Assembly: GCA_018660505.1 (NCBI GenBank)
Contig: JABJKE010000010.1
Location: 1-64,000 of the forward strand
Source of the DNA: Rhodobiaceae bacterium
Lineage (GTDB): Bacteria; Pseudomonadota; Alphaproteobacteria; RS24
Direction of reading: 5' to 3'
DNA length: 64,000 bases
Positions 362 through 431 of this stretch are shown one piece after another (position 1 is the stretch's first letter; each line of letters begins with the position of its first letter). The position numbers were made by a program, and so were the translations under genes. The notes below the pieces were generated by a model. It saw only the letters and a list, made by a program, of their open reading frames with translations. It was not told the origin of the DNA and did no database searches.

Positions 362-411
362 TTGACACCCATATATTCCCATGCTATCCCAAGTTATCCC
401 ATAAATGCCCT
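362..411 (+). promoter_or_regulatory. putative mraZ promoter with MraZ operator repeats
   Basis: A perfect -35-like TTGACA lies at 362-367, with a weak -10-like TATCCC at 385-390 (17-base spacer). The same stretch carries CCC triplets at 368, 378, 388, 398 and 408, four of them followed by A, an exact 10-bp period. Read on the minus strand these are TGGG direct repeats, the kind of site that MraZ binds in front of its own operon in characterised bacteria. Position, 83 bases or more before mraZ, and overlap with the promoter fit autorepression of the dcw cluster. The repeats are seen directly; binding is inferred. Confidence 0.72.
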
Positions 412-431
412 GGCCCGTACGGGTGGGGTGT

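Follow-up and report, generated by a model that had tools for sequence, protein, structure and literature searches.

MraZ is a widespread bacterial transcription factor, and its gene opens the cell-division cluster. The operator of mraZ in E. coli was reportedly described by Eraso et al. in 2014. In the mraZ leader of E. coli K-12, TGGG is repeated three times at 10-bp steps on the sense strand, after the sequences TTGACA and TAAACT, which are promoter hexamers by our own reading. Repression by MraZ of its own cluster via repeated boxes is stated, second-hand, for E. coli and Mollicutes in the available text of PMC8475190. The same kind of repression is supported for B. cenocepacia in the available text of PMC7761207, where an EMSA shows MraZ binding to a fragment with four such repeats. 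According to the entry titles, M. genitalium MraZ has been solved with a 4-box promoter (PDB 9r4j and 9sz7).

The locus analyzed here is in the first 64,000 nucleotides of contig JABJKE010000010.1 (hereafter, the window), and the host is a PS1-clade-like alphaproteobacterium. A phased array of CCC is located between rnpB and mraZ. It shares the core motif, the 10-bp period, and the position upstream of mraZ with the operator of E. coli. Its boxes are inverted and overlap the putative core promoter.

Results

A Phased Array between rnpB and mraZ

CCC is found at the positions 368–370, 378–380, 388–390, 398–400, and 408–410, and the spacing is exactly 10 bp. The five-unit pattern CCC(N7CCC)x4 has a single match (368–410) on both strands of the window. 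The same pattern is seen in none of 100 dinucleotide shuffles, and a chance origin of the phased array was rejected. The five copies with an exact 10-bp period described in the initial annotation are thus real. The annotation also read the units as TGGG on the other strand. This holds for four of them (CCCA at 368, 378, 388, and 398), which gives the repeated TGGG core at a 10-bp period that is expected of MraZ boxes, but not for the fifth, which is CCCT and reads AGGG.

All boxes are read on the reverse strand. Box 1 (367–371) is ACCCA, or TGGGT on the reverse strand. Boxes 2 (377–381), 3 (387–391), and 4 (397–401) are TCCCA, or TGGGA. Box 5 (407–411) is weak and lineage-specific, and its sequence is GCCCT, or AGGGC. 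In addition, a degenerate box 0 (357–361; TTCCA, or TGGAA) precedes box 1 by 10 bp and shares its register. An open reading frame (362–1009) crosses the array. Coding periodicity as the source of the array was rejected, because 10 bp is not a multiple of three and because the array is kept though its distance to the start codon varies.

Downstream of the array, mraZ (494–1009) is on the forward strand. Its product matches PF02381 in two stretches with 73.1 bits, where the cut-off is 23 (E = 1.9e-20), and belongs to the MraZ family. The two halves of the protein contain the motifs DAKGR and DGDGR; both DxxGR motifs are invariant in 13 aligned alphaproteobacterial MraZ proteins. The AlphaFold2 monomer model shows a mean pLDDT of 84.9. 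The predicted fold corresponds to that of M. pneumoniae MraZ (1n0f; Z 17.7, rmsd 2.3, 139 residues). MraZ bound to its promoter in M. genitalium is matched by the model as well, with Z 17.1 (9r4j; rmsd 2.0 over 139 residues) and 16.8. The next gene on the forward strand (1006–2049) is an open reading frame which, from its translated product and the gene order, we take to be rsmH (mraW) of the dcw cluster.

The upstream neighbor on the forward strand is the 3' part of rnpB, encoding RNase P RNA class A (1–273; Rfam RF00010, 231 bits). This placement of rnpB immediately ahead of the mraZ promoter recurs in at least one other alphaproteobacterial family (L110, 1–170). An Rfam look-up of eight loci, some with long leaders, found only RNase P RNA, in one locus.

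As to an MraZ regulon, no second array was found within two mismatches in the source genome, which is 94% complete at 1.77 Mb. There are three matches to the 4-box pattern and four to the 3-box pattern, all of them inside the array. The reversed patterns, used as the control, have four and six matches (places not given). They are a poor background, because reversal leaves CCC at 10-bp steps, and such a pattern is matched by the array itself.

Conservation in the Family

MraZ is present in 22 of the 25 genomes of the family to which the window belongs. The relatives G006 and G015, in which no rsmH was found, and G009, whose contig seems to end at rsmH, are not counted in the mraZ-negative set described below. 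Excluding G012, 21 of the 22 MraZ loci were examined. A promoter pattern, which demands box 3, was found in 20 of the 21, and the exception, L016, is truncated by the end of its contig. Throughout these 20 loci, boxes 1–4 (368–398 in the window) are CCC.

The ends of the array vary among the relatives. Nine of the 20 loci (L001, L003, L004, L006, L009, L014, L017, L023, and L024) contain an upstream fifth box, TCCCA or TCCCG before TTGAC, at box 0. Three loci, the window, L010, and L012, contain a downstream fifth box, GCCCT at box 5, together with TTCCA at box 0. TTCCA at box 0 is also seen in L005, one of the eight loci with neither the upstream nor the downstream fifth box (L002, L005, L011, L013, L015, L018, L019, and L022).

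Number and Register of Boxes across Alphaproteobacteria

MraZ is detected by Pfam in 135 of 153 alphaproteobacterial genomes. Upstream DNA was read for 134 genomes including that of the window; G163 is absent from this set and present in the count of 148 genomes for orientation given below. The longest CCC run at a period of 10 is five units in 20 genomes, four in 44, three in 30, two in 26, and one in 14. Runs of three or more are therefore conserved immediately upstream of mraZ in 94 of the 134 genomes. When the period is changed from 7 to 13, such runs are found in 1, 0, 0, 94, 2, 0, and 1 genomes, respectively, and the corresponding numbers for GGG are 3, 7, 0, 3, 3, 2, and 1.

Five of the 134 regions scored too low to be aligned (L043, L050, L062, L102, and L153), and L102 among them is cut at a contig end. 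The run counts for 134 and 148 genomes are alignment-free, while the figures for each register come from an alignment trained on the same 129 rows. On the common register, CCC is found at boxes 0–4 in 53, 97, 106, 110, and 72 of the 129 rows, respectively, and at box 5 in six rows, versus about 1.7 at control offsets. The column following CCC is A in 125, 124, 123, and 95 rows at boxes 1–4, which corresponds to TGGG in the reverse complement. Among strict layouts, boxes 1–4 (31 rows), boxes 0–4 (15), and boxes 0–3 (12) are the most frequent. Boxes 1–5, the layout of the window, are seen in three. If one mismatch to CCCA is allowed, 57 of the 129 rows contain at least five consecutive units, and the window contains six (boxes 0–5); single control sites match CCCA with one mismatch in three to seven rows.

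Based on the run lengths, the register occupancy, and the layouts across the class, five copies are the upper end of the normal range. The initial annotation had regarded five as exceptional. This view is not supported, as five strict phased CCC are seen in 20 of the 134 genomes and six in none. The fifth unit also departs from the TGGG box: on the other strand it is AGGG, and so few promoters have CCC in this register that, judged from sequence, the fifth strict unit is the least credible of the array. On the other hand, a phased array of MraZ boxes over the mraZ promoter, the main proposal of the annotation, gains support from the conservation in the family and in the class. The absence from close relatives that the annotation named as a refutation did not occur; boxes 1–4 are present in all the family loci matched.

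As an addition to the reading of the array as an MraZ operator, the five boxes might be a functional extension, in which a wider arc of the MraZ ring is used and repression is tighter than with four boxes. The 20 genomes with five strict copies are consistent with this extension, and so is the extra box, which some relatives have upstream of the 4-box core and others downstream of it. However, the fifth unit in the window is AGGG and is common to only two of the other 19 family loci, box 0 is imperfect too, and the occupancy of register 5 is only slightly above the background. Such a functional extension is rather unlikely.

The G-rich strand, with GGGN7 repeated five times, might alternatively form a promoter-regulating G-quadruplex. 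The window contains at least four G3 tracts with 7-nt loops, which satisfy the usual rule for this structure. Loops of 7 nt are long for a stable G-quadruplex. Over the array, the four-tract motif is present in only 64 of the 129 aligned promoters, so the motif is not conserved as such. Besides, a G-quadruplex needs neither constant 7-nt loops nor the A and T next to CCC, whose columns are among the most conserved. In S. aureus, G-tracts by the mraZ promoter are given a G-quadruplex role in the available text of PMC11796246, which presents CD and NMR results; that report may concern MraZ boxes. For the array in the window, a regulatory G-quadruplex appears highly improbable, and boxes for MraZ are the preferred reading.

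Overlap of the Boxes with the Putative Promoter

TTGACA (362–367, forward strand) abuts the first CCC and would be the −35 hexamer. The putative extended −10 element is TGCTATCCC (382–390, forward strand). Its hexamer, TATCCC, is 17 bp after TTGACA and ends in the CCC that belongs to box 3. Box 4 would be at the transcription start, which is expected near 397–398. A sigma-70 promoter scan of the window found no promoter, and TATCCC, as the putative −10 hexamer, matches the sigma-70 consensus poorly.

Among the 129 aligned promoters, 90 keep TTGAC, and 97 have TGnTAT immediately ahead of the CCC in box 3. TTGANN and TATCCC are separated by 17 bp in 72 rows, 18 bp in 26 rows, and 20 bp in two rows, and TTGA is not found in 29 rows. 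Of the spacers in the alignment, the one that separates box 2 from box 3 (ATGnTAT) is by far the best conserved. This is as expected if it belongs to an extended −10 element whose last half is box 3. We infer from these sequences that TGnTATCCC is an extended −10 element fused to box 3.

The distance from TATCCC to the start codon, measured in 116 of the 129 rows, has a median of 88 nt, 5th and 95th percentiles of 17.5 and 187.5 nt, and a maximum of 315 nt. These distances span the published leader lengths. According to the available text of PMC5089854, the mraZ leader, as given by the start sites, has a length of 268 nt in R. sphaeroides and of 170 nt in S. meliloti; in Caulobacter it is at most 70 nt long.

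Co-Occurrence with mraZ

Eighteen alphaproteobacterial genomes have no Pfam match to MraZ, and rsmH is found in all 18. A class-specific profile detected divergent MraZ proteins in three of them (G036, G060, and G138), which had been missed by PF02381 at E 0.001. After removal of these three, 15 genomes compose the mraZ-negative set; rsmH of one (G079) is split over two contigs. A phased run of three is seen in only one of the 15, within up to 1500 nt before rsmH. Likewise, CCA runs of at least three are seen in 123 of 148 genomes with MraZ versus one of 15 without detectable MraZ. The array thus co-occurs with mraZ.

Ahead of rsmH, G127 (L168), a genome of 0.8 Mb without detectable mraZ, retains TTGACG as well as three phased CCC and has lost box 3. 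This looks like a decaying operator. The genomes with divergent MraZ differ from one another. G060 (L166) contains an antisense array with a CCA run of four. G036 (L178) contains a sense TGG run of three, which is similar to E. coli and unlike most Alphaproteobacteria. In G138 (L171), neither a CCA run nor a TGG run is found.

The co-occurrence bears on another explanation, in which only the promoter is conserved and the phasing of CCC is its by-product, or in which a regulator other than MraZ reads the array. TTGAC and TGnTAT are certainly conserved, and the array overlaps both. Yet boxes 1, 2, and 4 are outside the promoter hexamers, and their CCCA and 10-bp register are conserved. TTGAC slides by one base, with the spacer being 17 or 18 bp, while the boxes hold their register. 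If the array served only the promoter or another regulator, its near absence from genomes without detectable mraZ would also be difficult to understand. There is very little room for this explanation, and MraZ remains by far the better candidate for the protein that recognizes the boxes.

Inverted Orientation in Alphaproteobacteria

Orientation was determined by runs of at least three CCA (antisense) or TGG (sense) at a period of 10 upstream of the MraZ domain match. Among the 148 alphaproteobacterial genomes with MraZ, 123 are antisense and one is sense, and 25 have no CCA run of three. Outside Alphaproteobacteria, the phylum is represented by 50 genomes, of which 37 are sense and six are antisense. 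The 50 genomes include 22 of a single family (f127), of which 18 are sense; without this family, 19 of 28, from 12 families, are sense. At the periods 9 and 11, runs of three are found in at most one of the 148 and in none of the 50. As a background, three of 102 end segments (600 nt) of the loci carry such a run of either motif.

A stricter 3-box score yields 120 antisense and one sense in the 148 alphaproteobacterial genomes. In the 50 others it yields 11 sense and one antisense, which is an undercount: the start codon was not found in four of the 148 and eight of the 50, for which a fixed offset defined the stretch to be searched, and this offset can miss an array near the gene, as L185, L186, L189, and L206 show a TGG run. 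In shuffles, the stricter score is reached in none of 394 on either strand. The layout of the E. coli type, sense TGGG downstream of the −10 hexamer, is thus seen neither in the window nor in most of the Alphaproteobacteria read, where the boxes are antisense over the putative −35 and −10 hexamers.

In 15 of the 22 genomes of f127 (L207, L211, L218–L220, L224–L228, and L230–L234), an antisense pair, CCACN6CCAC, is located about 80–270 bp further upstream of the sense TGG array. L198, L202, and L204 of the same family contain the pair without a sense run. From its sequence, the pair is perhaps a second MraZ operator.

Among the top-listed matches in the open-access literature, we noticed no description of alphaproteobacterial MraZ boxes or their orientation, and an earlier description may exist. 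The available text of PMC5089854, on the R. sphaeroides mraZ leader, does not contain "MraZ box", "repeats", or "TGGG".

Leader RNA

The mraZ leaders of the genus (432–450 in the window; L001–L006, L009, L010, and L012) contain hairpins before the ribosome site, each predicted from a single sequence. The stem sequence changes among them; that of the window, for example, is CCCCGCGCCAGCCGCGGGG. RNAalifold on a MAFFT alignment of the mraZ leader gives four pairs, none of which shows a two-sided change, and thus does not confirm covariation in a hairpin. GGG, as TGGGTG in several leaders, is kept downstream of box 4 at varying distances in the window (421–430) and in the genus leaders. In the RNA, base pairing between this GGG and CCCA of box 4 would be possible.

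Discussion

The phased array is very probably the operator of MraZ. As a whole, the evidence is best explained, and we say this with high confidence, by repression of the dcw cluster by MraZ via boxes covering the core promoter. In this mechanism, each subunit of the MraZ oligomer would read one box of the ATGGGA type. The four boxes (367–401), exactly 10 bp apart, are placed on about one face of DNA. They read TGGG on the template strand and alternate with the putative core promoter elements: TTGACA adjoins box 1, box 3 would supply the last half of the −10 element (TGCTATCCC), and box 4 would be at the expected start site. Because of this interleaving, bound MraZ would directly keep RNA polymerase from the −35 and −10. 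Occlusion of RNA polymerase is the simplest mechanism, since the boxes overlap both putative hexamers and the expected start site. When MraZ becomes scarce, transcription of mraZ, rsmH, and later genes would be freed.

The initial annotation hinted at wrapping of the ring-shaped MraZ oligomer by the DNA of the array. Such wrapping, on an opened or an intact ring, would be plausible. The solved M. genitalium MraZ-promoter complexes, one of them with a 4-box promoter by its title, set a precedent for an MraZ oligomer on phased boxes. The AT-rich spacers alternating with CCC would favor DNA bending.

It can be speculated that, early in Alphaproteobacteria, the operator was inverted and fused to the core promoter, and that MraZ has since competed with RNA polymerase for the −35 and −10 hexamers rather than acting downstream of the −10. 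With as many as five or six registers, a longer arc of the ring might engage DNA, and the number of end boxes might tune repression in each species. We offer this scenario tentatively and lean slightly against it in its entirety.

If the MraZ family uses boxes in the opposite orientation and position across most of the class, its arrangement on DNA may be independent of which way transcription runs. If the present reading is true, the alphaproteobacterial mraZ promoter would itself be built of repressor boxes. The register consensus should make the alphaproteobacterial MraZ operator easy to annotate.

Comparison with Known Systems

The E. coli mraZ operator and the array in the window share the TGGG core, the 10-bp period, and the position directly upstream of mraZ. 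They differ in number and layout. E. coli has three boxes in the sense orientation, downstream of TTGACA and TAAACT, whereas the window has four good boxes with weak ends, in the antisense orientation, over the putative −35 and −10 hexamers.

PmraBc of B. cenocepacia, as described in the available text of PMC7761207, has four phased repeats, as does the window. The motif there is GTG, and the repeats are located downstream of a putative −10 hexamer and over the start site; in contrast, the boxes in the window are inverted and further upstream. The site in Mollicutes, AAAGTG[T/G], attributed to Fisunov 2016 and given second-hand in the available text of PMC8475190, differs from the window in box sequence. 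What the Mollicutes system, including M. genitalium MraZ, has in common with the window is direct repeats, which an MraZ oligomer reads there and would read in the window. All in all, the array is an ordinary site for a regulator, and its peculiarity is a layout seen across the class, with boxes that are inverted and fused to the putative promoter.
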